64,000 nucleotides of DNA from Galliscardovia ingluviei (GTDB lineage Bacteria > Actinomycetota > Actinomycetes > Actinomycetales > Bifidobacteriaceae), in NCBI RefSeq assembly GCF_014635685.1, contig NZ_BMDH01000001.1:496001-560000 (forward strand), read 5' to 3'. The notes under the pieces are model-generated. The model was not told the origin of the DNA. It did not search any database and saw only the letters and a program-made list of their open reading frames with translations. Position numbers and translations under genes: made by a program. Every line of letters starts with the position of its first letter. Position 1 is the first letter of the stretch. Of this stretch, positions 1,067 through 29,997 are shown piece by piece.

Positions 1067-1606
1067 ATGAGCGCAAGTGCAGCACCACGCATTACGAGGT
1101 CTACGATAAGTTCTCGAAGCAGTTCATCTATGCGGCGATCGCAACTTACTCTGTTATCAGGTACTTCATCCCCAGTAAGATCCGCTAGTGAACGATCTGC
1201 GAAATCACGACCACAATCACGCAATAGCGGTATTGCAATGTATGGGGCACCCAGGCTTAAGGCGAAAACAGCGCATCGTGCCAATAGTGTTTCAGCTCTT
1301 ATGCGTATAGGAAAAGCTATTGCTGCTGCGCGAGTACGAGCTGTCCATGTAGTACTTGCAGTAGTTATACTTGTTTCTAGTTTATTTGGTTCGCTATTAC
1401 TGCGTACGCAGATGGTTCAGGATTCATTTGCTATTACACAAACGCAACAGTCAATAGGTAGGCTGACACAGGATATTCAAGAGAAGCAAGTACAACTTGA
1501 AAAACTGCAAGCATCACTACCCAATAAGGCTTCAGATTTAGGAATGGTTCCTGGTGCTGAATCGGTTACTATTGACGTTTCTGGGGCAGTGAAGGCTACG
1601 CACTAA
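1067..1606 (+). CDS. ftsL: FtsL-like septal membrane protein
   Basis: A 179-residue bitopic protein. It has a Ser/Arg-rich cytoplasmic part (1-90), one membrane span (about 93-113), and a Gln/Leu-rich segment (about 118-150) with coiled-coil character, followed by a short tail. This layout, and its place between rsmH and the transpeptidase gene, is that of FtsL, which joins FtsQ/DivIC to recruit FtsW-FtsI to the septum. FtsL proteins share little sequence, so the call rests on topology and synteny. The cytoplasmic part is longer than in E. coli FtsL but usual for actinobacteria. AGGGG lies a few bases before the ATG. The stop overlaps the next start by one base (TAATG), so translation is probably coupled. 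Confidence 0.75.
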   Translation: MSASAAPRITRSTISSRSSSSMRRSQLTLLSGTSSPVRSASERSAKSRPQSRNSGIAMYGAPRLKAKTAHRANSVSALMRIGKAIAAARVRAVHVVLAVVILVSSLFGSLLLRTQMVQDSFAITQTQQSIGRLTQDIQEKQVQLEKLQASLPNKASDLGMVPGAESVTIDVSGAVKATH

Positions 1607-3402
1607 TGGCAAAACGAACAAGAAGTTTTGGCGATATTTTCAGACGGCGCACCCTTGCTATCGGGCTTGTTATTGTAGTAATAGCACTTTCTTGTGTGGT
1701 GAAGCTGTCATATATTCAGTTGTACAACGGTTCTGCTTTAGCAAGTCAAGCAGCACAATCGAGGACAGTAGATCGTAGATTACAAGGTGTGCGCGGTACG
1801 ATAACAGATATCAATAATGTAACGCTTGCGCAGAGCATAGAGAGTTATACGATTTTTGCCGATCAGCAGGCTGCATCTCAATTTAAACCGGTAGCTTGCA
1901 AAGGTAGGAATAACGGCATATGCCAGGAAACTACGCAGAAGAAGGTATTTGAAGTTGAAGGGCCTGCATCGATAGCCCGTATGCTTGCGCCTATTCTACA
2001 AATGGATGTTAAGGAACTTGGAGCCAAATTAACAGGGTCAAACCGTTATGTGATTTTACAGCGTAACGCGCTACCTCAAGTTAAACGGCAGATTGATCAA
2101 CTCAATATTAGCAGTATCATTGGTTTTGAGCTGACTTCAAATAGGGAATATTCGGATGATGGTCTTTTAGGAACGATTCTTGGAGGAGTTGATAACACCG
2201 GCAATGGCGTTGCAGGCTTAGAGCTCATGGAAAATGAAGCACTTGTCGGACATGATGGTCATGTGGTGTATCAACGAGGTCGTAATGGGCAGGAAATTCC
2301 TGGAACACGTACTGAATCGAGCGATCCTAAACAGGGTGGCACAGTGCAGCTTACCATTGACCGTGATGTGCAATGGTATGTGAAAAAAGCGCTTGTGGAT
2401 GGCAAAAACAAATACCATGCGCAATATGGCATTGCCGTTGTACAAAGAGTTTCTGATGGACAAATTGTTGCTATTGCTGATACCGATGAATATCAAGCTG
2501 GTAGCGATGATGCAAAAACGCATACATCGAGAGCAATTACAGAAGTTTTTGAGCCAGGTTCAACGGGCAAGTTAATTACGGCAGCAGCTGTACTACAAGA
2601 AGGATTACATCAGCCGGCAGATCATTTTTCTGTACCGTACTCTATTAAAGTTGATGGGCAAACTATTCATGATTCGCACGAACATGGCGTCGAACAGCTT
2701 ACTCTCGGCGGTATATTAAAGGTTTCCTCAAATGTTGGTACACTGATGTCTGCGCAAAATCTTTCATATGATAAACGACTTGAATATATTAAAAAATTTG
2801 GTATCGGTGAATCTACAGGCATTCAGTTCCCCGGCGAGTCATCTGGTCAGATTGTTGATAATGCTAGCCAGTGGGATTTGCGCACTCGTCAAACGGTACT
2901 ATTTGGTCAGGGGTATTCTGCTTCTGCACTACAGATGACGAATGTTGTCGCTACTATCGCCAATAAAGGTGTGCGCAATGCCCAGCGACTTATTGCTTCT
3001 GCGACTGATGCGCAGGGTAATAACGTTACTCCTCAAAGTGCTCAACCTGTTCGTGTTATTGATGAGGATAATGCTAATAAAATGATGAATATGATGGAAT
3101 CTGTAGCACAAGCCTCTCAGAAGCTTCTTAATATGCCAGGTTATCGCATTGCTGGAAAATCTGGCACAGCAGAAGTTGCTGGTGAAGGTGGCTCTTTATC
3201 GGGTATTATGGCTGACTTTATTGGAGCTATTCCTGCTGATAATCCTCAGTTTGTCATTACTGTGGTCTACCGAGATCCTGAAGGTCTATATGGTATTGTT
3301 ACTGCAGGTCCTGTTTTTGCGCAGATTGGTGAATTCCTTATGCAGAAATACCAGATTCCAGCTTCTGCTCCAAGAACAGATGCTATTCCTACAGAGTGGT
3401 AA
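1606..3402 (+). CDS. ftsI: Septal transpeptidase, class B penicillin-binding protein (FtsI/PBP3)
   Basis: A 598-residue class B PBP that cross-links septal peptidoglycan outside the membrane. Visible parts are an N-terminal membrane anchor (about 15-38), a pedestal/dimerisation domain, and a transpeptidase domain with the three catalytic motifs in order: S319-T-G-K322, S374-S-N376 and K518-S-G-T521. Length and domain order fit FtsI rather than an elongation PBP2, as does its position between ftsL and the mur genes. The start overlaps the ftsL stop by one base. A GC-poor 37-bp spacer separates it from the MurE-like gene. Confidence 0.93.
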   Translation: MAKRTRSFGDIFRRRTLAIGLVIVVIALSCVVKLSYIQLYNGSALASQAAQSRTVDRRLQGVRGTITDINNVTLAQSIESYTIFADQQAASQFKPVACKGRNNGICQETTQKKVFEVEGPASIARMLAPILQMDVKELGAKLTGSNRYVILQRNALPQVKRQIDQLNISSIIGFELTSNREYSDDGLLGTILGGVDNTGNGVAGLELMENEALVGHDGHVVYQRGRNGQEIPGTRTESSDPKQGGTVQLTIDRDVQWYVKKALVDGKNKYHAQYGIAVVQRVSDGQIVAIADTDEYQAGSDDAKTHTSRAITEVFEPGSTGKLITAAAVLQEGLHQPADHFSVPYSIKVDGQTIHDSHEHGVEQLTLGGILKVSSNVGTLMSAQNLSYDKRLEYIKKFGIGESTGIQFPGESSGQIVDNASQWDLRTRQTVLFGQGYSASALQMTNVVATIANKGVRNAQRLIASATDAQGNNVTPQSAQPVRVIDEDNANKMMNMMESVAQASQKLLNMPGYRIAGKSGTAEVAGEGGSLSGIMADFIGAIPADNPQFVITVVYRDPEGLYGIVTAGPVFAQIGEFLMQKYQIPASAPRTDAIPTEW

Positions 3403-4330: not shown

Positions 4331-6007
4331 ATGCTGCAGATGACAGTAGCACATGTTGCTAAGACAGTTGAGGGTTCATGCGTTACGGCGTACCGTGGTC
4401 AGGTTGCACCATGTACAGAGAGCGATCTTGAGGCGGTTGTGACTAGTGCAGTAACTGATTCTCGTCAAGTACAGCCTGATAGTGTTTTTGTTGCGATTGC
4501 AGGCGAGCATGTAGATGGTCACGATTTTCTTGAGGCAGCGGCAAAACTTGGTGCGCGTGCTGCATTGGTGTCACATCCAGTCGATATTGCAGATGAGCAG
4601 TTGGCTCGACAAATGGTGCAGATTGTTGTTAAAGACACTGTTAAGGCATTAGGGGTACTTGCGCGAGAGAATATCGCATTGCGTCGCAGTGGCATTGCAA
4701 CATATGGTCCATTTAGCGTTGTTGGAATAACGGGTTCTGTAGGAAAAACTACCACAAAAGATTTATTGAACAACTTGTTGAGCACTGTTGGCCCCACTAT
4801 TGCTCCAGTAGGATCGTTCAATAATGAAATCGGGTTGCCGCTTACTGCATTGCGTGTAGATGAACATACACGGTTTTTGGTAGCTGAAATGGGTGCCAAC
4901 CACATGGGAGAGATTCGATATTTAACCTCTCTAGTGCGCCCGGATATTGCAGTGGTCTTAAAAGTGGGCGTTGCTCATGTTGGTGAATTTGGTTCGCCAG
5001 ACAATATTAGAAAAGCAAAACAAGAGATTGTTGAAGCATTAGATGAACATGGTGTTGCAGTACTTAATGCCGATGATGAACGAGTTGCTAGTATGGCTCA
5101 TGTAGCACCTGGATCGATTATTTGGTTTGGGGTTGAATGCCAACACGATAGTGCGTTGCAACAACAGTTCGTTACTGCTCGCAATATCACGCTCGATGGT
5201 CATGATCATGCGCACTTTACTCTTATGGATACGCAAGGCAATACTGCAGAACTAACTTTGACATTATCAGGTCAGCACCATGTGATGAATGCTCTTGCTG
5301 CTGCTGCAGTTGCCCAATATGTGGGCGTGAGCATGGATAATATTGTGCGCGTGCTTGCACATGCTGGAGCACAAAGTGCACATCGCATGGATGTGTTTAC
5401 TAAAGCGTTTACGCTACTCGATCATCAAGATGCTGACCAGCAAGATGGGAGTAGTACTGCAGTATGTACTGTTATTGATGATTCTTTTAATGCTAATCCA
5501 GATTCTATGCGTGCAGGTTTACAGGCTTTGGCTCACTGGCAAGATACTGATGAGCAAGGTAATGCCATTCCTATGGTTCGTATTGCTGTATTAGGCGCAA
5601 TGCTTGAGCTCGGAGAAAAGAGTAAACAACTCCATAAGCAAATTGGCGCAGAAGTTGTGGATTTAGGCATTGATGCGTTGATTAGTGTTGGAGAAGGTCA
5701 GGAGCTATCTCCTCTTGCAAAAGCCTTAGTTCAAGGAGCTGAGCAAAAAGCAGAAATAGTCACAACTGCCCAAACTGTCTATGATGGTAAGGCACATTAC
5801 GAGATTGAGCACAAGAGCTTTGCTACCCATGTACCAACAATTGAATCTGCCCAACACGCTATTGAAGAGTATATGACTATGGCTTTGCAAGCTCAGCCTC
5901 ATGCGCATGTTGTAATCTTATTAAAAGGTTCACATGCTTCCGGTCTAGGCAAGCTTGCCGAACAGTGGCATCATGATGTGCAAACACGAGAGGGGATATT
6001 GCAGTGA
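4331..6007 (+). CDS. murF: UDP-MurNAc-tripeptide--D-Ala-D-Ala ligase MurF
   Basis: MurF adds D-Ala-D-Ala to UDP-MurNAc-tripeptide in the cytoplasm, using ATP. The N-terminal substrate domain contains TDSRQVQPDSVFVAIAGE. The P-loop is GITGSVGKTTTKD (about residues 132-144), followed by the Mur ligase signature around SFNNEIGLPLT and AEMGANHMGEI, and by DDSFNANPDSMRAGL in the C-terminal domain. At 558 residues it is longer than most MurF proteins (450-500). The extra length lies in loops of the C-terminal half, between about residues 470 and 520. The start follows the MurE-like gene by 9 bp, and its TGA overlaps the GTG of mraY by four bases. Confidence 0.95.
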   Translation: MLQMTVAHVAKTVEGSCVTAYRGQVAPCTESDLEAVVTSAVTDSRQVQPDSVFVAIAGEHVDGHDFLEAAAKLGARAALVSHPVDIADEQLARQMVQIVVKDTVKALGVLARENIALRRSGIATYGPFSVVGITGSVGKTTTKDLLNNLLSTVGPTIAPVGSFNNEIGLPLTALRVDEHTRFLVAEMGANHMGEIRYLTSLVRPDIAVVLKVGVAHVGEFGSPDNIRKAKQEIVEALDEHGVAVLNADDERVASMAHVAPGSIIWFGVECQHDSALQQQFVTARNITLDGHDHAHFTLMDTQGNTAELTLTLSGQHHVMNALAAAAVAQYVGVSMDNIVRVLAHAGAQSAHRMDVFTKAFTLLDHQDADQQDGSSTAVCTVIDDSFNANPDSMRAGLQALAHWQDTDEQGNAIPMVRIAVLGAMLELGEKSKQLHKQIGAEVVDLGIDALISVGEGQELSPLAKALVQGAEQKAEIVTTAQTVYDGKAHYEIEHKSFATHVPTIESAQHAIEEYMTMALQAQPHAHVVILLKGSHASGLGKLAEQWHHDVQTREGILQ

Positions 6008-17530: not shown

Positions 17531-17860
17531 TTAATGTGTTGCTGATGCTGTAAGTTTCAATCCAATGACACAAGCAATAATCCCGATAATAAACAGTACT
17601 CTGAGTATCGAAAAGTCTTCTGCACCGGTAATCATAGCCCATAGCGCAGTAATAGAAGCTCCAATAGCAACCCATACAGCATAGCCTGTGCCAACAGGAA
17701 TTATTTTGAGGGCATAACTCAACCCCAACATTGAGCAGATGCACGCAACAAAAAACACCACAGTAGGGATAAGCCGTGTGAAATGTTCACTGTAGGACAG
17801 TGCTGTAGCCCAAACAGCTTCTAAACAACCTGAAAGAATTAAGACGATCCAAGAAAACAT
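17531..17860 (-). CDS. gdx: Guanidinium exporter Gdx (SugE-type SMR protein)
   Basis: A 109-residue four-span small multidrug resistance protein. Glu14 in ILSGCLEAVWATAL is the conserved proton/substrate site. The SugE-subgroup pattern LSYALKIIPVGTGYAVWVAIGA is present. SMR proteins work as antiparallel dimers exchanging H+ for substrate, and the Gdx subgroup exports guanidinium. This identification is supported by an upstream guanidine-II riboswitch, whose usual targets are exactly such exporters. A strong AAAGGAG lies before the ATG. The gene is a single unit, convergent with ssrA and separated from it by the tmRNA terminator. The older name is sugE. Confidence 0.9.
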   Translation of the reverse strand: MFSWIVLILSGCLEAVWATALSYSEHFTRLIPTVVFFVACICSMLGLSYALKIIPVGTGYAVWVAIGASITALWAMITGAEDFSILRVLFIIGIIACVIGLKLTASATH

Positions 17861-17865
17861 GATAC

Positions 17866-17920
17866 TCCTTTCTTTATGAGGCCGTCCTCTTTGAAAGAAG
17901 CAGATAGGTCGTCCTACCTG
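17866..17920 (-). promoter_or_regulatory. Guanidine-II (mini-ykkC) riboswitch upstream of gdx
   Basis: Read on the minus strand, hairpin 1 is CAGGTAGG-ACGA-CCTATCTG (17901-17920; 8 bp, one G-U) and hairpin 2 is GAGG-ACGG-CCTC (17878-17889; 4 bp). Two hairpins with ACGR tetraloops are the defining feature of guanidine-II RNAs. The 11-nt linker contains CTTCTTTC, which can pair over 8 bp with GAAAGGAG, the Shine-Dalgarno of gdx. The expected mechanism is that without guanidine the linker hides the ribosome site. Guanidine binding stabilises both loops and frees it. The fit of ligand, structure and gene is very good. Confidence 0.9.
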
Positions 17921-19289: not shown

Positions 19290-19784
19290 TTGGATAATCA
19301 AGAACCAGAAGAAGAGCAGACAGAACCAACCACAGGCGAACATAGTGAGAGTCAAACAGACCAAGAAGCATCCACGCCACCGTGGGAGCGTGACGGCGTG
19401 GACTTCGACCCTGCTAAAGCGTGGAATCTTATTCAGAACTTGCGTGCTGATAACGCCAAAATCAAAGAAATGAACGATAGTTATAAATTGCAGTTGAAAA
19501 CCTATGAGGATGAGAAACTCAGTGAGACAGAGCGGTTGCAACGTGATCTTGAAGAGGCGCATCAGGCTATCGCGAATTATAAGAAGGAACAAGTTTGGGT
19601 GTCTATTAAGCAAGCCCACCCTATCCTTACTGATGAAGACAAGGCGCTTATTGGTGAGGGAAGTGAAGAAGAGATGACTGTGCGTGCTGCAAAGCTTGCG
19701 GCACGACTCGAACAAGCTCAGGCAGCATTACGAGAAGCAGCAGTACAACCCATACGTCATCCACATATGAACCGCACCCCGTGA
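19290..19784 (+). CDS. Phage capsid scaffolding-like protein, 3' end fused into the CRISPR array
   Basis: A 164-residue acidic, helical protein. It has a Glu/Gln/Thr-rich N-terminus, then PWERDGVDFDPAKAWNLIQNLR, and a long coiled-coil-like helix (about 50-110). This architecture is typical of phage minor-structural/scaffolding proteins of the DUF4355 kind, though no phage gene lies beside it. It starts with TTG after AAAGGA. The last codons, NRTP and TGA, are made from the truncated terminal CRISPR repeat, so the natural C-terminus is probably lost. I regard it as a prophage leftover. Function is uncertain. Confidence 0.5.
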   Translation: MDNQEPEEEQTEPTTGEHSESQTDQEASTPPWERDGVDFDPAKAWNLIQNLRADNAKIKEMNDSYKLQLKTYEDEKLSETERLQRDLEEAHQAIANYKKEQVWVSIKQAHPILTDEDKALIGEGSEEEMTVRAAKLAARLEQAQAALREAAVQPIRHPHMNRTP

Positions 19785-20804
19785 GGGGTGCGACCTTACA
19801 AACGGTGAAGCGAGTGAATGCTGAGTTATTTCAATTCACGCACCCCGTGAGGGGTGCGACGTTACAAACACACGTCATGTGGTGGCGTGGTTACATTTCA
19901 ATTCACGCACCCCGTGAGGGGTGCGACAAGCCAAGAACAAATAATCAAACAACTTTGCGAAATTTCAATTCACGCACCCCGTGAGGGGTGCGACCATGGC
20001 ATACGATTAGTAATAATGTCTATAAGCGTATTTCAATTCACGCACCCCGTGAGGGGTGCGACAAACGCACTAAACGAATGAAGGCGTTACCGTCAAATTT
20101 CAATTCACGCACCCCGTGAGGGGTGCGACGACCTTCAAGCGCCGCGCATGAGCTCACGTGTGGTATTTCAATTCACGCACCCCGTGAGGGGTGCGACACG
20201 GGTATGTCATACGGAGTGCCTAACCACTTTTATTTCGATTCACGCACCCCGTGAGGAGTGCGACCGATAAAAATGCGAGTGAGCGCACGCTTAAGTGTTA
20301 TTTCGATTCACGCACCCCGTGAGTAGTGCGACAGAGTCGTAAATCACCACTCGTAGTACCAAATGTATTTCGATTCACGCACCCCGTGAGGAGTGCGACC
20401 TGCCCTATGTGCGTGAGTTCGCTTGCCATGTTTGATTTCGATTCACGCACCCCGTGAGGAGTGCGACAAAGTCGTCCACTACGTTTGCCCAATCGTCAAA
20501 CATTTCGATTCACGCACCCCGTGAGGAGTGCGACTTCAATACTGTTGGCGGCGTTTTGCATGTGCTGTGATTTCGATTCACGCACCCCGTGAGGAGTGCG
20601 ACGCCAGAATGCGGCACTGGTTTACCATCAAGCACAATTTCGATTCACGCACCCCGTGAGGGGTGCGACGATTGTGGAGTTAAAGATGCGCTTTCCTCGT
20701 TCAATATTTCAATTCACGCACCCCGTGAGGGGTGCGACTTTGACGACCTGAAAACACGCACCACTGTCATCATTTCAATTCACGCACCCCGTGAGGGGTG
20801 CGAC
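19773..20804 (-). CRISPR. Type I-C CRISPR array, 15 spacers
   Basis: There are fifteen full 33-bp repeats and one truncated repeat (19773-19794), with spacers of 33-36 bp. Full repeats start at 19828, 19895, 19962, 20030, 20097, 20165, 20232, 20300, 20367, 20435, 20502, 20570, 20637, 20706 and 20772. In crRNA orientation (minus strand) the repeat begins GTCGCACCCC, has the loop TCAC, then GGGGTGC and the handle GTGAATTGAAAT; the stem is GCACCCC/GGGGTGC. This is the I-C class repeat. The degenerate repeat at the low-coordinate end and cas2 at the other end put the leader at 20805 upward. Repeats 20232-20602 carry two substitutions (see findings). Spacer sources are unknown. Confidence 0.98.
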
Positions 20805-21157: not shown

Positions 21158-21448
21158 CTAAATAATCAACACCTCATCTAAGGGGTGATGAGTCTGCCTA
21201 CCGTAGTGGCTTACTTTTGTTGAATATTTGCTGCCTAAATTATAGAACCTGATACTGTCTTTTTCGCTATCTATTATTTCCAACAGTTCGTGAATCAACT
21301 CCAGCTTTTGGGATGACGTAATTTCGCATTCAAATACGCTTTGCTGCACGCGTTGCCCGTATTTTGTACAGGCTTTTGCAACATTGCGCAGCCGACGTTT
21401 TCCTTGTGCAGTTTCAGTATTAACATCATAGGTTACTAAAACGAGCAT
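21158..21448 (-). CDS. cas2: CRISPR adaptation endonuclease Cas2
   Basis: 96 residues from the ATG at 21448 (MLVLVTYDVNTETAQGKRRL), preceded by GGAG at a good distance. The frame opens 11 codons earlier without a ribosome site. LVTYDVNTE carries the catalytic Asp at the end of strand 1, and QQSVFECEIT is the second conserved strand. It forms the integrase core with Cas1. It is the last cas gene, 110 bp after cas1, and faces the leader. Confidence 0.96.
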   Translation of the reverse strand: MLVLVTYDVNTETAQGKRRLRNVAKACTKYGQRVQQSVFECEITSSQKLELIHELLEIIDSEKDSIRFYNLGSKYSTKVSHYGRQTHHPLDEVLII

Positions 21449-21558: not shown

Positions 21559-22590
21559 TTATTTCCACAAAAATGGCGGGTATGCATCTAGATCACCTCG
21601 AATTGTTCGTGCTAAGAGCAGTGCTTGAGTATAGGGAAGCAGTCCCCAAGAGATTTTCTCTTGTAAAAATGGGTGAGTAATAGTTTCTTGCTTTCTCTTT
21701 TCCCATGCTGTAAGTACAGTTTTTCGCCCCAGCTCGCTAAGCAAGACACTTCCATTTTCTTGTGTCTCAAAATGTTTATATTGAATAACTCCTGTATTCA
21801 CCAAGGTTAGCGCAAATCGATCGGCAAGACATGGACGTAATTCTTCCATTACATCAAGCGATAATGATGCTCTTCCAGGTCTATCTGTATGCATAAAACC
21901 AGCATAAGGATCTAATCCAACGCCATGAAGCGCACTTGCACAGCTTGACTGTAGGAGTACGTAAATGAAGGAAAGTAGCGCATTCATGGGATCTAATGGA
22001 GGTCTGCGGCTTCGTTCTGTGAAATAAAAATGTTCTTTATCTCTCAAAATGAGATCATCAAATGTTGCAAAATATTCGTGCGCTGCGAGACCTTCTATAC
22101 CACGCAACTGATCAATGGATTCGCAGTCTTTTAGAGCAGTAAGTAGTTTTTGCAGTGTTGCACTGGTATGTTGTAAACGCTCTACATTAACACGTAGTTC
22201 ATGGTCTCTTTTTGTACGTTCAACAACCCATCGAGCATTGTAAATTTTTCCAGTAATAAATGACTGTGCGTATGGTAATGCCATTTCAGGAGCGCTGCTA
22301 ATGGCAAACTGCTCTTTACGTAAGATAATATTGCGCTGATGTTCTCCTAGTACTGAGCAAAGATAGCGTCCAGTTGGTTTGAAAAACGACAATTGTACGC
22401 CAAACTCACAGCAAGCTCCCATTAAAGCTGGAGAAGCTCCTTTGTAAGAGAAACATAGAATCGCATCTAAAGATCGCAAGGGGATAGAGGCAAGTGTGCG
22501 TTCCTCTTGCTTGACTACCACATTGTCTTGGTGCAAGGTTAGATAGGTATTTTCACTCAGTATGAAGAGCGTTCGTAATAATTGTTTCAT
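21559..22590 (-). CDS. cas1: CRISPR integrase Cas1 (type I-C)
   Basis: 343 residues, the usual I-C length. Visible metal-binding landmarks are GIEGLAAHEYF (Glu), then LHGVGLDPYAGFMHTDRPGRASLSLDVMEELRP with the His and the acidic residue. It inserts new spacers at the leader end with Cas2, and Cas4 trims the prespacers. The ribosome site is weak (GAGAA). A 168-bp gap separates it from cas4, whereas in compact I-C operons these genes touch. Confidence 0.97.
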   Translation of the reverse strand: MKQLLRTLFILSENTYLTLHQDNVVVKQEERTLASIPLRSLDAILCFSYKGASPALMGACCEFGVQLSFFKPTGRYLCSVLGEHQRNIILRKEQFAISSAPEMALPYAQSFITGKIYNARWVVERTKRDHELRVNVERLQHTSATLQKLLTALKDCESIDQLRGIEGLAAHEYFATFDDLILRDKEHFYFTERSRRPPLDPMNALLSFIYVLLQSSCASALHGVGLDPYAGFMHTDRPGRASLSLDVMEELRPCLADRFALTLVNTGVIQYKHFETQENGSVLLSELGRKTVLTAWEKRKQETITHPFLQEKISWGLLPYTQALLLARTIRGDLDAYPPFLWK

Positions 22591-22758: not shown

Positions 22759-23442
22759 CTACTGGTTGATAGTTTGCTGAATATACGCTTTTGCGCTTGT
22801 TGAATTCAACATTTTGGGTTGGCATATGTCAAGTAGTGAACATGATTTGCAACGTGGACGAAACTTTGCTTTGGGAGTGTAGCCTCTGTTGAAGTAGTCG
22901 TGCATTTGCTTGCAGTATTGTTGCACTTGTTCACGCAGTTCAGTATTGAATGTAACAATTTCTCGTCGTTTTGTGTGTTGATAGAAAAGCGAACCCTCAG
23001 GTACGTCACAGGAAAGCATGTATTCTAGGCACATTGCTTCTGCACATAGTTGTAGACGATCGGCGTCGATTTCCTTAGGTTTACCATGCTTGTATTCAAC
23101 AGGGTAGGGAATCCACGAACCTTGCCGTTTTGACAAATGTATGCCGTGTGGATTGCTGTGAAATTCCACAACATCACATATACCGCTAATCCCAAGTATG
23201 GGATTGAACACGCGTAAACTGCGTAAGATAAGAGTATTGCCGCGAGATTCTGATTGCTGATAATCATCGACACGTTCATGTTCAATAGACCCCGCTGTAG
23301 TGAGGTAATTATCAATCCATTGCTGCTCAATATGGATAAGAGCCCATTGTCGTGCACAGAATGCGTAGTGCTGTATTCCGGAAAGTTGAAGCCACTCATC
23401 TTCGCTGTATGATGTTGAAATATGTACGTTTGGCACTTCCAT
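22759..23442 (-). CDS. cas4: CRISPR prespacer-processing nuclease Cas4
   Basis: 227 residues of the RecB-like Cas4 family. The pattern is one Cys near the start (QHYAFCARQW), then SGICDVVEF and YPVEYKHGKPK (the D and E-x-K nuclease residues), and a C-terminal cluster RCKSCSLLDIC. Together the four cysteines bind an Fe-S cluster. Cas4 defines PAM and length of prespacers. The ribosome site is weak. A 245-bp non-coding gap separates it from cas7, unusually long for this operon type. Confidence 0.95.
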   Translation of the reverse strand: MEVPNVHISTSYSEDEWLQLSGIQHYAFCARQWALIHIEQQWIDNYLTTAGSIEHERVDDYQQSESRGNTLILRSLRVFNPILGISGICDVVEFHSNPHGIHLSKRQGSWIPYPVEYKHGKPKEIDADRLQLCAEAMCLEYMLSCDVPEGSLFYQHTKRREIVTFNTELREQVQQYCKQMHDYFNRGYTPKAKFRPRCKSCSLLDICQPKMLNSTSAKAYIQQTINQ

Positions 23443-23687: not shown

Positions 23688-24539
23688 TTATTTGCCTTCG
23701 ATAATCTCATAATGAAGTCCAGGTATAGTTGATTCATCAACAGTAACCGTGCCTTCATCATCAATATGTACAGCGCGATGTACACGAGCTGAGGAATACT
23801 GACCTGATCGGTCATTGTGCTCAAACCAGACAACAGCTATCACTTCCATAGATCCCGCAGGGCGAGCAGAGCTTTCATCATTTTCAAAAATAGTAAGCAG
23901 GGCTTCCTTGACCTTTTGAGCGTCAGCATCACTGAAACCAGTTAAACTTGACAACTGAGTGTTGATAGAGCCATACGTAGCATACACAGCACTTCCTGAA
24001 ATGCGGTATTTGAATCCCATGGTATCTGCGGATTTTTTACCAGTATCAGTAGTTTCACTATTTACCGACTTTGTGATTTCTATGTCATCGATAGCTACTG
24101 GTTTGAGGGAGAATGCTGGCTGAATACTTACCGGTCCGCGCACGCCCAGTGAAACTGCATCACTGTCTTTAGTACCTTTTGCTTTATACGCGAATACTTG
24201 TCCAAATGCACGCACATCGAACCATTGCTTGCATACGTGATGATACATGGTGGTTTTATTATTTGACTCGTCTTTGTCAAGCGATTGCTTGAAAGTATTG
24301 AAGCGATCAGATAGTGAACGTTCCCCGTCATCAGAGCGTTCTTCTGCTTGTACAAAAATGCGTTCACCAGCGTCCTGTAAACGGTTGCGTAATTTGCGCT
24401 TTAATGCTACATCTGATACTTCTCCAAGGCCGCTGCCAATAGTGCGTGGGCGATTGCCGTTTAGAGGGTCACCGTTAGGGTTAGCATTTTGTACACGGAA
24501 TACTAATGCAAAGTCGATTTTATGGGTAAGAGTTTCCAT
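23688..24539 (-). CDS. cas7: Cascade backbone protein Cas7 (Csd2, type I-C)
   Basis: 283 residues. The N-terminus KIDFALVFRVQNANPNGDPL is diagnostic for Csd2/Cas7c. VKQ-type RNA-contact loops and the C-terminal strand VHIDDEGTVTVDESTIPG follow. About seven copies coat the crRNA spacer and flip every sixth base. A strong AAGGAG lies before the ATG, 48 bp after cas8c. Confidence 0.96.
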   Translation of the reverse strand: METLTHKIDFALVFRVQNANPNGDPLNGNRPRTIGSGLGEVSDVALKRKLRNRLQDAGERIFVQAEERSDDGERSLSDRFNTFKQSLDKDESNNKTTMYHHVCKQWFDVRAFGQVFAYKAKGTKDSDAVSLGVRGPVSIQPAFSLKPVAIDDIEITKSVNSETTDTGKKSADTMGFKYRISGSAVYATYGSINTQLSSLTGFSDADAQKVKEALLTIFENDESSARPAGSMEVIAVVWFEHNDRSGQYSSARVHRAVHIDDEGTVTVDESTIPGLHYEIIEGK

Positions 24540-24587: not shown

Positions 24588-25016
24588 TTACTCTGCAGAT
24601 TCTGGATTATGTTTAGCTTCTTCGTTACTGTTTGTACTCCAACCAGCAATGTTCCTTCGCTGATGAGAATATCCCAGTAAATACAGCGCGGATAGAGCTT
24701 CATCTGATTCGTATTCTTTAGGATTAAATCTGTCCATAACTTCATCGATGGTATTGCAAATTCTTTGAGTAAAGCGTACAAGCCTTGGATTACTCTTCCC
24801 ATATTCAATATAGGGATTTATTTTATTACGTATTGTGTTATATGTTTCAAATGGGTGTGCACTGTAGTTGTTCATAAAACGCAGAGCGTTAGTGGCACGG
24901 TTTGCATTTGTGCCATTACCACGCACGTAGAGTACTCGTTCTTCAAAGCAGTCAGCGAGTGCTAGTAGCCGTCCATACAAGTAGTCCCTGTCAGTGCGTT
25001 CCTCATCGAGTGCCAT
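24588..25016 (-). CDS. cas11c: Cascade small subunit Cas11c from an internal start in cas8c
   Basis: In type I-C systems the small subunit is known to be made from an internal start in cas8. Here ATG at 25016 (codon 500 of cas8c) has AAGGGAG with six bases between it and the start. This is as good as the operon's real start sites, and gives 142 residues (MALDEERTDRDYLYGRLLAL...), mainly helical. Position, size and frame all fit Cas11c, which forms the complex's belly filament. Confidence 0.75.
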   Translation of the reverse strand: MALDEERTDRDYLYGRLLALADCFEERVLYVRGNGTNANRATNALRFMNNYSAHPFETYNTIRNKINPYIEYGKSNPRLVRFTQRICNTIDEVMDRFNPKEYESDEALSALYLLGYSHQRRNIAGWSTNSNEEAKHNPESAE

Positions 25017-26513
25017 AGTAATCTCCCTTCGATTGTTGTTATTGAGGTTGTAATACTGTTTCCATAGTCCACAAGTAACGGCTAAATCTGTCTGCCAAGT
25101 GCTCAATTTGTCGTAGGACAATGGATGTTTGACGTGATTGAATGTTTCTTCGAGTATTGCTCTAGGTACTGGTTTTGCACTAAACATGCATTCGATAAGG
25201 AGTTGTCGTGTTACGCGCTTTAACTGTTTGTAGCGCTTACTCGTTTGGTCTGCAGTGCCGAATGCTACACGGATAATATCGTCAGACGATGGTGAGCTAG
25301 TTATAATTTCACGTTTATATCCATCATCTGTTTTCTTATACCGTGGTATATCCCAAGCAATATTAGCGTGCCAGCGTGCAAGATTTTCAAGGTACTCTTT
25401 TGGTTGAAGTTCACGGTAATATCGCACACTCAGACGTCCAGTTGAAGCAGCATCAAGGATGAGTATAACTATTCTTCCTTCATGCTGGCTCATAAAATTA
25501 GGTGAATGATGCCCTTGCAGTAATTTGGCAAACTTCTTCGCAAATTCCTGATAAGTGACTTGTTGTGCTTCTTCAACAGGGTTATTTGATGTTATAAGCT
25601 GATCGGCAGCAAGCCAGCTTAGCGTAACAGGTTTAGCAATACCAGAGATTTCAGGTTCATCAACTGGTAATTGTGGCTTTGCAACCTGCCAAATTACAAT
25701 TGCTTGAGTATCGGTAATCAAACCATGCGTGCGTACAAGCCAGCGCAGTGTATTATGGATTTTTTGCGAGGTAAGCGAATCAATAGAGAGTGCTTCATCG
25801 CGGTTAGCAAATCGACCTCGGAAGGTAAAACCACTACTATCATTCGCAGATAAAACTTTGGCATTACCTGCAGTGCTCACAATATTCTTCGGGAAATTTT
25901 CCACTTGGGTATAGAAATCCTGTCCGAACATATCTTTACCAACAGCATGCCCGTGATGTGAGGAGAAAGCAATCCACTGCTCACGGATTTCAGGTTTATC
26001 AGCAATAGCTTGTATTGCAGTGTCAGGTTCCTCAATAAGGAAGGAAACACCAAGTTTATGATCTTTATCCGTGAAAGTCTCATTGAATCGTTCAGTAGCA
26101 TCTTTTGTGAGGCTATGTTGAGTAAGATACGAGTAGAGGGCATTGAGTATGGCGTTGTCACCTTTCCACTGGTTAAGCTGCTCAAGATATAATCTAGCTT
26201 TGTCTGCATCAAGAGTCGCATCCAAGTAATGTAATTGATCGCATAAAGCATGTGGCGCGGGCTTACTTGTTCTACCCATAGATGCTTCGGTGCATGGAAT
26301 AATCACTGTTTGCGTCTTGTCGAGGCGTTTGAAATTCACCAGTTCGCCTTGAAGATTAATCGTCGCTTCAAAACTGACCTTAAGCGTCATGTGATTAAGC
26401 GGCAATAATGCTTGATTCACTACATCGTCGTGGGGGTTGTCGCTTGATTCAACAAGCCCTGATGCTGGTTTAATGTGTTCGTAAGTGTTCAGAAGATTAG
26501 TCCAGATATCCAT
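24588..26513 (-). CDS. cas8c: Cascade large subunit Cas8c (Csd1)
   Basis: 641 residues from the ATG at 26513 (MDIWTNLLNTYEHIKPASGL), directly behind GGAGGAAG. The frame extends 36 codons upstream into cas5c but has no ribosome site there. Csd1 landmarks include the N-terminal region, HGHAVGKDMFGQ, and DAASTGRLSVRYYRELQPKEYLENLARWH. The large subunit recognises the TTC-type PAM and recruits Cas3. It overlaps the end of cas5c by 17 bp. The last 142 codons are likely also translated separately as Cas11c. Confidence 0.95.
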   Translation of the reverse strand: MDIWTNLLNTYEHIKPASGLVESSDNPHDDVVNQALLPLNHMTLKVSFEATINLQGELVNFKRLDKTQTVIIPCTEASMGRTSKPAPHALCDQLHYLDATLDADKARLYLEQLNQWKGDNAILNALYSYLTQHSLTKDATERFNETFTDKDHKLGVSFLIEEPDTAIQAIADKPEIREQWIAFSSHHGHAVGKDMFGQDFYTQVENFPKNIVSTAGNAKVLSANDSSGFTFRGRFANRDEALSIDSLTSQKIHNTLRWLVRTHGLITDTQAIVIWQVAKPQLPVDEPEISGIAKPVTLSWLAADQLITSNNPVEEAQQVTYQEFAKKFAKLLQGHHSPNFMSQHEGRIVILILDAASTGRLSVRYYRELQPKEYLENLARWHANIAWDIPRYKKTDDGYKREIITSSPSSDDIIRVAFGTADQTSKRYKQLKRVTRQLLIECMFSAKPVPRAILEETFNHVKHPLSYDKLSTWQTDLAVTCGLWKQYYNLNNNNRREITMALDEERTDRDYLYGRLLALADCFEERVLYVRGNGTNANRATNALRFMNNYSAHPFETYNTIRNKINPYIEYGKSNPRLVRFTQRICNTIDEVMDRFNPKEYESDEALSALYLLGYSHQRRNIAGWSTNSNEEAKHNPESAE

Positions 26514-27216
26514 ATTCTTCCTCCACGCGTTGCACATTGGTTCCAAGTTGGAATTGTTGTATAGGCTGATGAGAACGAATAATGCGTTGTTCAAGATGCG
26601 TTGTTTTGTCATGAAAATCAATCACACCATCATGCATTACTGGTCTAAAAAACTGAGTTATGAAATGGTGTTCTGGATTTTCATCCGGATAAATGAAACT
26701 GTGAAACATATATCCCATATCCCAGTCGCCGTAATCGTCATAAAAACCTGCGCTTTCGCCAAAAACGCATGGTTCGATATATCCAGGGCATTCACGTGTA
26801 CCTAAGAAAATATCGCGTCTTCCACCTTTTTCTACTGAGCGGAGTGCAATTTGATGGTGTTTATTTTCGTTGCGATCGCCCGCTAGATCTTTGCGTTGTT
26901 CATTCCAAACAAAATGTGCTTGTACTTGGTAACGTACGTCATAAAGATATGTGTAATAGGATAAGTCGTTGCTGCCACTGAGCTTAATTGGTCTGATGCC
27001 CTTGCTTTCAGTTTGTATTTTATGCATAATGCGCACAGCATCAATAACCCAGATGAAAGTAGGTTTCCAATAAATTCCTTCAGTAATGCCAATCAATGCT
27101 TGATATGTTGGTACTGAATAGGAAAATTTTTCGCCGCCGATTCGTGCTGCTGGATCTGAAAACAGGGCATATTTTCCTGATATTTCGTATTCAATAGAGT
27201 TTCTATGTTGGCTCAT
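26497..27216 (-). CDS. cas5c: Cascade protein and crRNA endonuclease Cas5c (Cas5d)
   Basis: 239 residues. In type I-C this Cas5 replaces Cas6: it cuts the repeat RNA at the 3' base of the stem and caps the 5' handle. The N-terminus (SGKYALFSDPAARIGGEKFSYSVPTYQALIGITEGIYWKPT) is characteristic of Cas5d, as are FLGTRECPGYIEP and the C-terminal part. AAGGAGG before the ATG is excellent. It is the first gene of the minus-strand operon. Its promoter region contains the inverted sites described below. Confidence 0.96.
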   Translation of the reverse strand: MSQHRNSIEYEISGKYALFSDPAARIGGEKFSYSVPTYQALIGITEGIYWKPTFIWVIDAVRIMHKIQTESKGIRPIKLSGSNDLSYYTYLYDVRYQVQAHFVWNEQRKDLAGDRNENKHHQIALRSVEKGGRRDIFLGTRECPGYIEPCVFGESAGFYDDYGDWDMGYMFHSFIYPDENPEHHFITQFFRPVMHDGVIDFHDKTTHLEQRIIRSHQPIQQFQLGTNVQRVEEEYGYLD

Positions 27217-27276
27217 CGAGCCTCCTTGGAGTATCTTCGTTGATATAACATATTGTACAACTTTATATGGACTATA

Positions 27277-27311
27277 ATATCAATTAATAAGAAGTTCTTA
27301 TTGTTTGATAT
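27277..27311. promoter_or_regulatory. 35-bp palindrome with two TTC-flanked target-like sites
   Basis: The arms are TTCTTATTAATTGATAT (minus strand, 27293 to 27277) and TTCTTATTGTTTGATAT (plus strand, 27295-27311), 15 of 17 alike, around one G. Each arm starts with TTC, the I-C PAM, and holds TTGATA, a -35-like hexamer directed at cas5c or cas3. The spacer-like segment at 27373 shares the 14 bases after the TTC except positions 6 (minus site) or 6 and 7 (plus site). It could be a Cascade target or a protein operator. Confidence 0.7.
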
Positions 27312-27341
27312 GCTTACGACATTCGAGTTTTGCAAAGTCGT

Positions 27342-27415
27342 GTCGCTTAAAATATTAAGCGTGAATTGAAAATTATTTATTGATATGTAGGTGCAGTGCT
27401 GGGCCTCGGCCCAGC
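27342..27415 (+). ncRNA. Candidate crRNA-like regulator (CreR-type degenerate mini-CRISPR)
   Basis: Pseudo-repeat 1 (27342-27372) starts GTCGC, has stem CGCTTAA/TTAAGCG with a 4-base loop, and ends GCGTGAATTGAAAA. This keeps 13 exact bases of the true repeat's 3' part, i.e. the crRNA handle. A spacer-like segment of about 22 nt (27373-27394) begins TTATTTATTGATATG. Pseudo-repeat 2 (27395-27415) is a hairpin GCTGGGC-CTCG-GCCCAGC, with the same 7-bp stem and 4-base loop as the real repeat but a different sequence. It lies in the leader of cas3. Expression and processing by Cas5c are inferred. Confidence 0.65.
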
Positions 27416-27501
27416 AAAACCTGCTTCAGGTGCAATGCATTATTGCCTGCTGTTGAGTAGTATGCTAGATGGCAAATAAACACCGTGGAACTGAGGTTGT
27501 G

Positions 27502-29997
27502 ATGGCGCAATCAATACTGTATGGGCGAAAATCAGAGGATGGAGATACTCAACCGCTTCGTGAACATTTATTGGGAGCGGGGCGATTAGCGCAATCTTTT
27601 GAACAAGAATATAGTGATCTAGCATATGCTGCAGCAGTACTTCACGACATTGGTAAGGCTAGCGACGATTTTCAAGCATACTTGCTGAATAATCAAGGTG
27701 AGCGTGGCAGTGTGCATCATGCTATTCACGGAGCGTTATTAACGCAACAATCTCAGTACCAAACCTCTGACGAAGCTCAGTTAGCTAATGCCATACTTGC
27801 ACTTGCCATTGCTAGGCATCATGGTGAATTGCCGGATTGTATTTTCCGCCAACAAGACCAGTATGGCGCAAATAGTATTTTTGAAGTATTTGCAGGAAAA
27901 ATCCCCCAGGTCGATCAAGATAACTTCACTCAGGTGCGATCGCGCCTAGATGAATTACAGCTAGATGTTGATCAAATATTGCAACAAGCTGTTTCGAATA
28001 TTCATGAGTTTCACTCTACGCTTGCCGCACATCAACAAACGATTGCCACTTATGATCAGGTTATGTTTTATTACGGTTTGCTCGTGAAATATATGTATTC
28101 AAGACTTGTTGATGCAGATAGGCTTGACGCAGCTGCTTTCACTATGCCTGCATCTCAACGTGAACATGCTCTTGTCCAGACGCAGCCTGATTGGGAAACA
28201 TATATTCAAAAACTTGCGGACTTTACTAGTACCTTTGATACAGCAACACCAATAAACCGAGTGCGCACTTCAATTTACAGCCAATGCCAAGAAGTCTCGC
28301 AACGTGAAACTGGTATCTACCAGTTAGCAGTACCTACTGGTGGTGGCAAAACACTTGCATCACTGAACTTTGCCTTACATCATGCTAAGCAGCGGAACAA
28401 GCGACGCATTATTTATGTAATTCCGTATCTGTCGATTACTACGCAAACGGCGCAAGTGTTTCGTTCGGTATTTGATCTTGACGCTGAAAATACTGTGCTT
28501 CTTGAACATTACTCCAGAGCGGATTCATATAGAACGAATAGTCAAGAACATGTAGCAGAAACTGGGCAACGTGATGATGAGTCTTTACTGGAAAAACTAG
28601 CTGCAGAACGATGGGATAGTCCAATTATCGTAACCACTATGGTGCAATTTTTGGAGACAGTAATGTCTGCTCAAGGCACGAAGCTACGTAAATTCCATAA
28701 TATGGCTGACAGTATTATTATTTTCGATGAGATACAAGCATTGCCTACCAATACCATTAATCTCTTCAATGAGATTGTAAGTTTTCTTTCAAATATATTG
28801 CATACCACTATTGTGCTGTGTTCCGCTACGCAGCCGCATTTGATGCAATCGAGTAGGCATAATCTTGCATTGAGTGCTAAGCCTAATCTTGTGCATCTAA
28901 GCGATAAGGAGCGTCAAGTCTTTCGCAGAACACAAATTATTGCATCGCAAGAACTGTGCTCTATCGAGGAGTTTGCGGAACATGTGTTGGAATCTGCTCG
29001 TACCCATGGTAATTGTTTGGCTGTTGTGAATTTGAAAAATGAGGCAAAAAAAGTGTTGGCTCACCTTAAATCGCTACATGCTGAGGATGAGTTCACTCTT
29101 GTACATTTGAGTACTAATATGTGCAATGCACATCGCGCTGATAAAATTGCGTTCTTAAATAAGCAACTTGCTACAAAGGACGCTCACGTAATTTGTGTGA
29201 GTACGCAGCTGATTGAAGCAGGCGTTGATATTTCCTTCAGGAGTGTTGTGCGTGCAACAGCTGGTCTCGATAGTATTATTCAGGCAGCTGGACGTTGTAA
29301 TCGTAACGGGGAACGTGCTACTCCAGCACCAGTGTTGGTGTACTCACTACAAGACGAGCATTTAGAGAATCTCCCAACGATTCAAATTGGTAAAAATATA
29401 ACCGAGCAAATCTTGAGGCAGCATCCTGAGATTGATTTGCTTTCTAACCGAGCAATAGATTTGTATTATGACATATTATTTGACACATATAAAGTGCAAC
29501 CGGGAATGAATAGCATCATGGATTACGAGTTTAGACAAGCTGGTGGTACTCGTATGTATGCGTATTCAGCATTAGCAGTAAATAAGAAACAACGTGGCGA
29601 GTATTACAATGCAACTGGCAAGCAGTATCTCAATCTATTCGCTCAAGCATTTGCCACGGTGGGGGAGCATTTCCGAGTGATTAAAAATGCTGGTCAGTCT
29701 GTTGTAGTGCTCTATAGCACGCAGGAAGATCAAGAATGCAAACCACTTACTTTTATTCAGCAGCTAGCTGATTCTAGTATTGATAAATCCGAAAAGCTTG
29801 CAATTTTACGCCAATTGCAGCCGTATACCATCACCTTGTTTGATTATGAAATTCGCAAACTCGAAGATGAACACGCATTAACCACGCAAGAAATTGTGCC
29901 CAATAGTAATTTTACCATTCGCTACATTGATAGTGCACACTATAGTGATGATATAGGTATCACTTATGATATTACGCCGGACATGATGATGTTTTAA
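27502..29997 (+). CDS. cas3: CRISPR helicase-nuclease Cas3 (HD + SF2 helicase)
   Basis: 831 residues from ATG 27502, which has GAGG seven bases before it; an ATG 11 codons earlier lacks a site. The N-terminal HD nuclease has LHDIGKASDDF, VHHAIHGALL and ARHHGELPD. The helicase has Walker A VPTGGGKTLASL, motif II IIFDEIQALP, motif III LCSATQP, and motif VI QAAGRCNRNGE. Cas3 is recruited by Cascade to cut and unwind target DNA. In most I-C loci cas3 heads the operon in the same direction. Here it is divergent from cas5c, so effector and nuclease are separately transcribed. Confidence 0.96.
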   Translation: MAQSILYGRKSEDGDTQPLREHLLGAGRLAQSFEQEYSDLAYAAAVLHDIGKASDDFQAYLLNNQGERGSVHHAIHGALLTQQSQYQTSDEAQLANAILALAIARHHGELPDCIFRQQDQYGANSIFEVFAGKIPQVDQDNFTQVRSRLDELQLDVDQILQQAVSNIHEFHSTLAAHQQTIATYDQVMFYYGLLVKYMYSRLVDADRLDAAAFTMPASQREHALVQTQPDWETYIQKLADFTSTFDTATPINRVRTSIYSQCQEVSQRETGIYQLAVPTGGGKTLASLNFALHHAKQRNKRRIIYVIPYLSITTQTAQVFRSVFDLDAENTVLLEHYSRADSYRTNSQEHVAETGQRDDESLLEKLAAERWDSPIIVTTMVQFLETVMSAQGTKLRKFHNMADSIIIFDEIQALPTNTINLFNEIVSFLSNILHTTIVLCSATQPHLMQSSRHNLALSAKPNLVHLSDKERQVFRRTQIIASQELCSIEEFAEHVLESARTHGNCLAVVNLKNEAKKVLAHLKSLHAEDEFTLVHLSTNMCNAHRADKIAFLNKQLATKDAHVICVSTQLIEAGVDISFRSVVRATAGLDSIIQAAGRCNRNGERATPAPVLVYSLQDEHLENLPTIQIGKNITEQILRQHPEIDLLSNRAIDLYYDILFDTYKVQPGMNSIMDYEFRQAGGTRMYAYSALAVNKKQRGEYYNATGKQYLNLFAQAFATVGEHFRVIKNAGQSVVVLYSTQEDQECKPLTFIQQLADSSIDKSEKLAILRQLQPYTITLFDYEIRKLEDEHALTTQEIVPNSNFTIRYIDSAHYSDDIGITYDITPDMMMF

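Follow-up and report, generated by a model that had tools for sequence, protein, structure and literature searches.

The cas locus and the unit between cas5c and cas3

The window, by which we mean the whole 64,000-nt stretch of DNA analysed here, contains a complete type I-C CRISPR-Cas system. The operon is read on the minus strand and begins with cas5c (26497–27216; PADLOC Cas5c, 6.1e-74; NCBIfam TIGR01876, 246.7 bits against a cut-off of 85). It continues with cas8c (24588–26621), cas7 (23688–24539), cas4 (22759–23442) and cas1 (21559–22590), which match the PADLOC models Cas8c, Cas7c, Cas4c and Cas1c, and with cas2 (about 21158–21448), which is assigned by position and reading frame alone. 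Divergent from this operon, on the plus strand, lies cas3 (27469–29997; PADLOC Cas3c, 1.2e-182), whose true start is probably the ATG at 27502 (MAQSILYGRK..., with GAGG upstream) rather than 27469, judging by the sequence. A CRISPR array of 33-nt repeats (repeat GTCGCACCCCTCACGGGGTGCGTGAATTGAAAT) occupies 19773–20804 on the minus strand. Six successive repeats of this array (20227–20610) are variants, with ACTCC or ACTAC in the stem and ATCGAAA in the handle, and the repeat at 20632 carries the handle change only; the repeats flanking this variant stretch (20227–20677) are of the consensus type. Elsewhere in the window, at 17531–17920, a guanidine-II riboswitch (35.9 bits) precedes a gene of the small multidrug-resistance family (Pfam), which we take to be an ordinary guanidine exporter arrangement.

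From cas5c to cas3, the intergenic region holds a TTC site read leftward, a TTC site read rightward, a pseudo-repeat, a seed and a GC-rich hairpin. The pseudo-repeat (27342–27372, plus strand; GTCGCTTAAAATATTAAGCGTGAATTGAAAA) has a 7-bp stem (CGCTTAA/TTAAGCG) with the loop AATA and an 11-nt 5′ handle, TGAATTGAAAA, and its GCGTGAATTGAAA is array repeat sequence exactly. The core of the handle, GCGTGAATYGAAA, is restricted in the 2.09-Mb assembly of the source genome (G000) to the two arrays, this unit and one further place, C2:373622. Directly behind the handle comes the seed, or guide, segment (27373–27387, plus strand; TTATTTATTGATATG), followed by the hairpin GCTGGGC-CTCG-GCCCAGC (27398–27415, plus strand), with 7 bp and a 4-nt loop. 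When rechecked base by base, all coordinates and bases given for 27277–27415 in a preliminary description of this DNA proved correct. The unit has, in its sequence, one feature of the cas-regulating guide RNAs known as CreR, namely the handle and stem of the cognate repeat placed beside cas and outside an array, while the stem is absent from the predicted structure: in the minimum-energy fold of the isolated 79-nt guide RNA, the 5′ half of the pseudo-repeat pairs with downstream bases and the pseudo-repeat hairpin is not formed.

The preliminary description gave the hairpin at 27398–27415 the 7-bp stem and 4-base loop of the real repeat. We rejected a second repeat at this place, as no second handle lies behind the hairpin and relatives have terminator-like hairpins there. 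More probably it forms the 3′ end of the guide RNA. On neither strand is it followed by a T run, and no terminator-like site was called within 27180–27520; in relatives, the terminator-like hairpin behind the seed has a clear U tract in some units only.

Two facing target sites

The seed segment matches two sites between the unit and cas5c, each behind a TTC PAM. Site A (guide positions 1–16; 27275–27290, minus strand) has its PAM at 27293–27291, 74 nt from the cas5c start, and its protospacer from 27290; it matches the guide at 13 of the first 14 positions, the mismatch being at position 6. Site B (27298–27312, plus strand; PAM 27295–27297) faces cas3 and the guide gene and matches at 13 of the first 15 positions, with mismatches at 6 and 7. 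The two PAMs stand back to back as GAA-G-TTC (27291–27297). Both of these TTC-flanked matches, 13/14 on the minus and 13/15 on the plus strand, had been claimed in the preliminary description and were reproduced exactly.

Chance agreement was assessed by shuffling, in the window and in relatives alike. When the 125-nt target region of the window was dinucleotide-shuffled 20,000 times, the best match behind TTC reached 13/17 or more in 22 cases, and two such matches were never obtained. With any PAM allowed, the top two matches in the target region are precisely the two TTC sites. A search of the 2.09-Mb assembly with the seed pattern TTCTTATTNNTTGATAT behind TTC, in which two positions were left free, found an exact fit at sites A and B only, no place with one mismatch and seven with two (a reversed-pattern control gave three places with at most two mismatches). 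Control spacers compared with the cas5c–cas3 region reached no more than 10/17 for the window's array (15 spacers) and 9/17 for the second array (9 spacers).

The guide points away from cas5c and towards cas3, and the hairpin between them lacks a T run, so that the guide, and perhaps cas3 with it, would come under the control of site B. No sigma-70-like promoter was called on either strand within 27180–27520 (shuffle mean 1.2), and relaxed scans of the region returned weak candidates only.

Matching units in related and distant I-C loci

We surveyed I-C loci by collecting handle-like motifs outside arrays and comparing the 17 nt behind each with every TTC site within 400–500 nt. No stem was demanded in this survey; a demand for 5 bp would miss units such as those of B. 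subtile (L059/L143). The loci came from a family search (Bifidobacteriaceae, 189 genomes; 30 with a match to the Cas5c query and 26 to the Cas3 N-terminus query), an order-level search around a Bacillales relative (397 genomes, 50 with a match, 30 loci examined), a phylum search (396 genomes, 24 with a match, including the window's own) and a named genome collection (80 loci kept of 525). The survey scored 535 handle-like places, of which 51 rows (duplicates included) had a best TTC match of 13–16/17 and 484 one of 12 or less. Three rows below 13 were accepted as units, L058 and its duplicate L142 (12) and L041 (11), and the other low rows were taken as background, including the non-units L040 at 1350 and L119, which score 12. 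The high-scoring rows L013 and L051 are not near cas. The resulting list holds 40 unique units, for example L016 (G059; guide TATGTACAACATGCGTA, target TTC-TATGTACAACAAGCGTA), L136 (G049; guide GGTGTCTGATGTGCGGG, target TTC-GGTGTATGATGAGCGGA) and L098 of Neobacillus muris (guide ATACATTATATTAATCA, target TTC-ATACAATATATAAATCA). A stem of at least 5 bp adjoins the handle in 30 of 38 units, as against 107 of 460 other handle-like places; by the rule used, the remaining 8 of the 38 pseudo-repeats have no perfect 5-bp stem.

The Cas5c proteins of the family fall into two groups, with 64–71% and about 26–40% identity to that of the window; both groups carry units, and their tested members are I-C by curated models. 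Within the Bifidobacteriaceae a unit was found in 12 of 17 genomes with a cas5c of at least 64% identity (none by the survey rule in G005, G185, G108, G149 and G172) and in 6 of 13 with a divergent cas5c (none by the rule in 7), both counts resting mostly on 1.5-kb flanks, so that misses are possible. Bacillales have a unit in 16 of the 30 loci examined (of 50 genomes with a match) and none by the rule in 14, and the named collection has one in 13 of 80 loci, several of its contigs ending near cas. No unit was seen in the 1.5-kb flanks of 23 I-C loci of other Actinomycetota, and for two isolated handle motifs of a Bacillales genome (G189:C14:56325 and C24:35972) a search out to 700 nt found no TTC site that matched. 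As the unit is missing by rule from many I-C loci, it is not essential to type I-C. Among five plasmid I-C loci there is one possible unit (L244), which we left out of the counts. It lies at about 4634–4800 of the locus on the mobilizable Lacticaseibacillus paracasei plasmid pLPZ1, between cas2 and cas5c, and scores 14/17 with 13 consecutive bases matched behind TTC; its stem is atypical.

Guide and target covary. Across 15 Bifidobacteriaceae units, agreement between a guide and its own target averages 12.9 of 14 read positions (minimum 11), while 210 swapped guide–target pairs gave a mean of 4.8 (maximum 12, from the related seeds of L058 and L059), and none of 100,000 permutations of the pairing reached the observed sum. 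Covariation between lineages, a feature of CreR, is thus seen across these 15 units and 210 swaps. The preliminary description had named covariation of pseudo-spacer and sites in relatives as a check, and independent variation of the two as grounds for abandoning a guide; the swapped pairs speak in favour of the guide reading.

This covariation bears on an alternative reading, that of an operator with three half-sites for a protein repressor. Such an operator would account for the palindrome that the facing sites form around a single G, in which 15 of 17 arm positions are paired, with a third half-site in the pseudo-spacer. However, 39 of the 40 units have one seed-matched site each and hence no palindrome, so the conserved palindrome in relatives that is characteristic of a protein operator is not found. 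Moreover, the site still matches the segment directly behind a repeat-like handle in lineages whose sequences differ, changing with the guide, and neither mismatches at positions 6 and 12 (see below) nor a constant TTC are expected of an operator. We therefore rejected a protein operator, which we regard as most improbable. Two facing targets, as originally described, are real in the window but occur in none of the 39 other units compared; among the 40, only the window unit has two seed-matched targets. Nine AT-rich Bacillales units have second matches of 11–14/17, but without agreement throughout positions 1–5 in any of them; where such a match lies at +27/+29, it overlaps the near-palindromic seed of the guide itself.

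The mismatches between guide and target are periodic. A first profile of 38 pairs (the 40 unique units without L013, which is not at cas, and L158, later placed at cas3) was built under a rule that forced a match at positions 1–5 and allowed one mismatch in 7–11. To avoid this constraint, a second profile was made from pairs for which total score was the sole criterion; the set is a different one and includes L013 and L158. In these 38 unique pairs (total at least 13/17), positions 1–14 hold 60 mismatches, 29 of them at position 6 and 26 at position 12, and every other position has none or one. The 15 pairs whose spacers are less than 60% identical have 12 mismatches at position 6, 10 at position 12 and three elsewhere. 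Pairing fades after about 16 nt, and identity is near random from about position 18. When the best match was sought anywhere in the 400 nt upstream, it carried a 5′ TTC in 36 of 38 loci, and TTC is given as the Bifidobacterium I-C PAM, together with an 11-nt handle, in the relevant part of PMC7284854. Because Class 1 complexes flip out every sixth guide base (PMC11127173, in part), we interpret the free positions 6 and 12 as bases that Cascade cannot read. Two further proposals of the preliminary description, that TTC is the I-C PAM and that position 6 is a base flipped out by Cas7, agree with the retained TTC and with the 6-nt Cas7 period of the mismatches (6, 12). A seed partly complementary to sequence ahead of cas, behind the cognate PAM, is likewise a feature of CreR and is found here.

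At the unread position 6 the guide base varies, yet among Bifidobacteriaceae the target has A in all 10 near-group units and T in all 5 divergent-group units, and among Bacillota it has A in 18 of 22. It is possible that this preference reflects a promoter requirement.

These regularities also speak to the idea that the pseudo-repeat is a dead array remnant and its matches the functionless leftover of a self-derived spacer. That the repeats are degenerate and that some I-C loci have no unit would fit such decay, but one would hardly expect a remnant to retain handle, stem, PAM and matched blocks in many lineages and yet to vary at positions 6 and 12 and in its distal part. A dead remnant is a very improbable account of the unit, if marginally less so than an operator.

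The targets are placed ahead of cas genes. The open reading frame downstream of the target matches Cas5c (27) or Cas3 (8) in 35 of 40 units, as judged against the window's own Cas proteins only; in that comparison those of L013, L041, L113, L132 and L158 had no match. Of the 37 units with an open reading frame, 23 have their PAM 50–111 nt ahead of its called start; these starts are mechanical calls, and some are wrong. From the PAM to the cas5c start the distance is 74 nt in the window, 71 in L016, 74 in L184 and 75 in L109. Of the 40 units, 36 have the target upstream of the guide and on the opposite strand, an orientation in which transcription of the guide leads away from the targeted gene. 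The logic is displayed most plainly in L158 (G135; about 1500–1900, minus strand), where pseudo-repeat, seed, U-tract terminator, target, promoter-like pair, ribosome site and open reading frame can all be made out. Its PAM is 2 nt from the TTGACA of a TTGACA-16-TATAAA pair, and its open reading frame has a weak match to the Cas3 N-terminus (6.3e-5), which makes it a further cas3 case; the locus is a clean natural test case for the proposed mechanism.

Such a guide might load Cascade at the cas control region with a main output other than repression, for example activation or the licensing of spacer acquisition. Binding by itself leaves the sign of the effect unfixed, and our promoter scan of 27180–27520 called none. 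Against this stand the distances from PAM to start just given, the promoter-like pair next to the L158 PAM ahead of a Cas3-like open reading frame, and the precedent of CreR, which is one of repression (PMC13131331, in part). We consider an output of this kind very unlikely, though slightly less so than either an operator or a dead remnant.

Proposed autorepression by Cascade and a second guide

The anatomy of the unit, the matches and their PAMs, the covariation, the 6-nt mismatch period and the position upstream of cas are directly seen. On the strength of these sequence features, we propose that the window element is very probably a type I-C guide RNA of the CreR kind, by which Cascade represses its own genes through partial pairing. 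Distant bacteria share this arrangement, with sequences that differ from one to another and yet match within each unit, so it is probable that the CRISPR machinery turns down its own genes by means of a decayed mini-CRISPR unit. The guide would be transcribed rightwards from about 27342 or before. Cas5c would recognise the pseudo-repeat hairpin and leave the 11-nt handle; Cas5d processes I-C repeats (PMC11127173, in part). I-C Cascade would then take up the RNA, in which the seed, some 15 nt long, is followed by a 3′ hairpin. The complex would bind site A through positions 1–5 and 7–14 and site B through positions 1–5 and 8–15. Binding at site A would block transcription of the cas5c-8c-7-4-1-2 operon, and binding at site B the rightward transcript carrying the guide and probably cas3. 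Two Cascades would hardly fit at once, so each binding event may block one side, or both by bulk. The pairing is presumably too short to let Cas3 attack the chromosome. In this way Cascade would set its own level; canonical crRNAs from the array at 19773–20804 would compete with the guide, and derepression would follow when these crRNAs or anti-CRISPRs take Cascade away.

Effector self-repression by a short guide is also known from Cas9, which represses its own promoter through the long-form tracrRNA (tracr-L), a short natural guide; unlike the unit described here, tracr-L belongs to Class 2 and is derived from a tracrRNA. CreR is described as an autorepressor of I-B, I-E and V-A effectors that acts through partial complementarity to the promoter (PMC13131331, in part), and its range is elsewhere given as ‘Type I and Type V-A’ (PMC12737573, in part). 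The window unit resembles CreR in its crRNA-like RNA with a degenerate repeat beside cas, in its partial match to the cas control region behind a PAM and in its predicted autorepression. It differs in belonging to a I-C system, which extends the described range (I-B, I-E, V-A) and is not a mechanistic requirement, and in having two facing sites between divergent cas5c and cas3 with the guide downstream of one of them. Type I-C is not named for CreR in the parts of PMC13131331, PMC12737573 and PMC12948488 drawn on here, and we recognised no report of a I-C CreR in the literature searched; the primary CreR paper may mention I-C. The word CreR is absent from a 2026 review of bifidobacterial CRISPR (PMC12838274), as are ‘promoter’ and ‘autoregul’ from a 2020 survey (PMC7284854). 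Degenerate ectopic repeats are typical of this class of RNAs (PMC9458426, in part), and the CreA of CreTA and CrePA (PMC9458426, PMC12737573, both in part) shares with the window unit a degenerate repeat, partial pairing and Cascade as repressor; the window targets, however, are cas genes rather than a toxin, the adjacent genes being cas5c and cas3. The Racr phage RNA anti-CRISPRs (PMC10651486, in part) are also solitary repeat mimics, whereas the window unit is chromosomal, stands beside cas and has a seed matching the cas control region. As far as we have seen, what is new here is the CreR logic in type I-C, in many lineages and in one unusual two-target form.

The other unit-associated handle of the source genome is closer to the CreA pattern. 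This second crRNA-like unit (C2:373530–373655, guide on the minus strand, handle at C2:373622; about 934–1055 of L013, also row L051) consists of an isolated pseudo-repeat with a 7-bp stem, an exact handle, a seed and a U-tract terminator. About 95 nt past the handle lies a TTC site that the seed of this unit matches at 14 of 17 positions, with mismatches at 6, 11 and 12; none of 20,000 shuffles gave such a match. Immediately next to the PAM is the TTGACA of a promoter-like pair, TTGACA-18-TAACAT as read by eye, ahead of a 204-aa open reading frame; a tRNA-Glu lies on the other side of the guide. The sole match of this open reading frame is to phrog_22307 (1.1e-6), a phage family without assigned function, and it has no match in Pfam, NCBIfam or PADLOC. 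Homologues of the gene in five genomes besides G000 have no guide within their 1.5-kb flanks. From its sequence, the second guide with the 204-aa gene is possibly a type I-C module of the CreA/CreP kind.

More tentatively, I-C Cascade in this bacterium might govern a small natural regulon through two or more dedicated guides. One would throttle both cas arms through two facing sites. As it lies between one of these sites and cas3, and no terminator is called ahead of cas3, it would itself belong to the repressed cas3 leader; the other would hold down a phage-type gene whose release would penalise the loss or inhibition of Cascade. In such a regulon, pairing of about 16 nt with positions 6 and 12 free might be a general code for non-cutting I-C guides.

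If the autorepression proposed here is true, RNA-guided self-control reaches type I-C, the most abundant subtype found in Bifidobacterium (23%; PMC7284854, in part), and extends from Bifidobacteriaceae to Bacillales. The natural guide–target pairs would show how much pairing Cascade may need in order to bind without Cas3 firing, namely about 16 nt, of which positions 6 and 12 can stay unpaired. Such a guide may hold down native I-C systems that are used for editing; its deletion would offer a simple means of increasing Cascade levels in laboratory strains.
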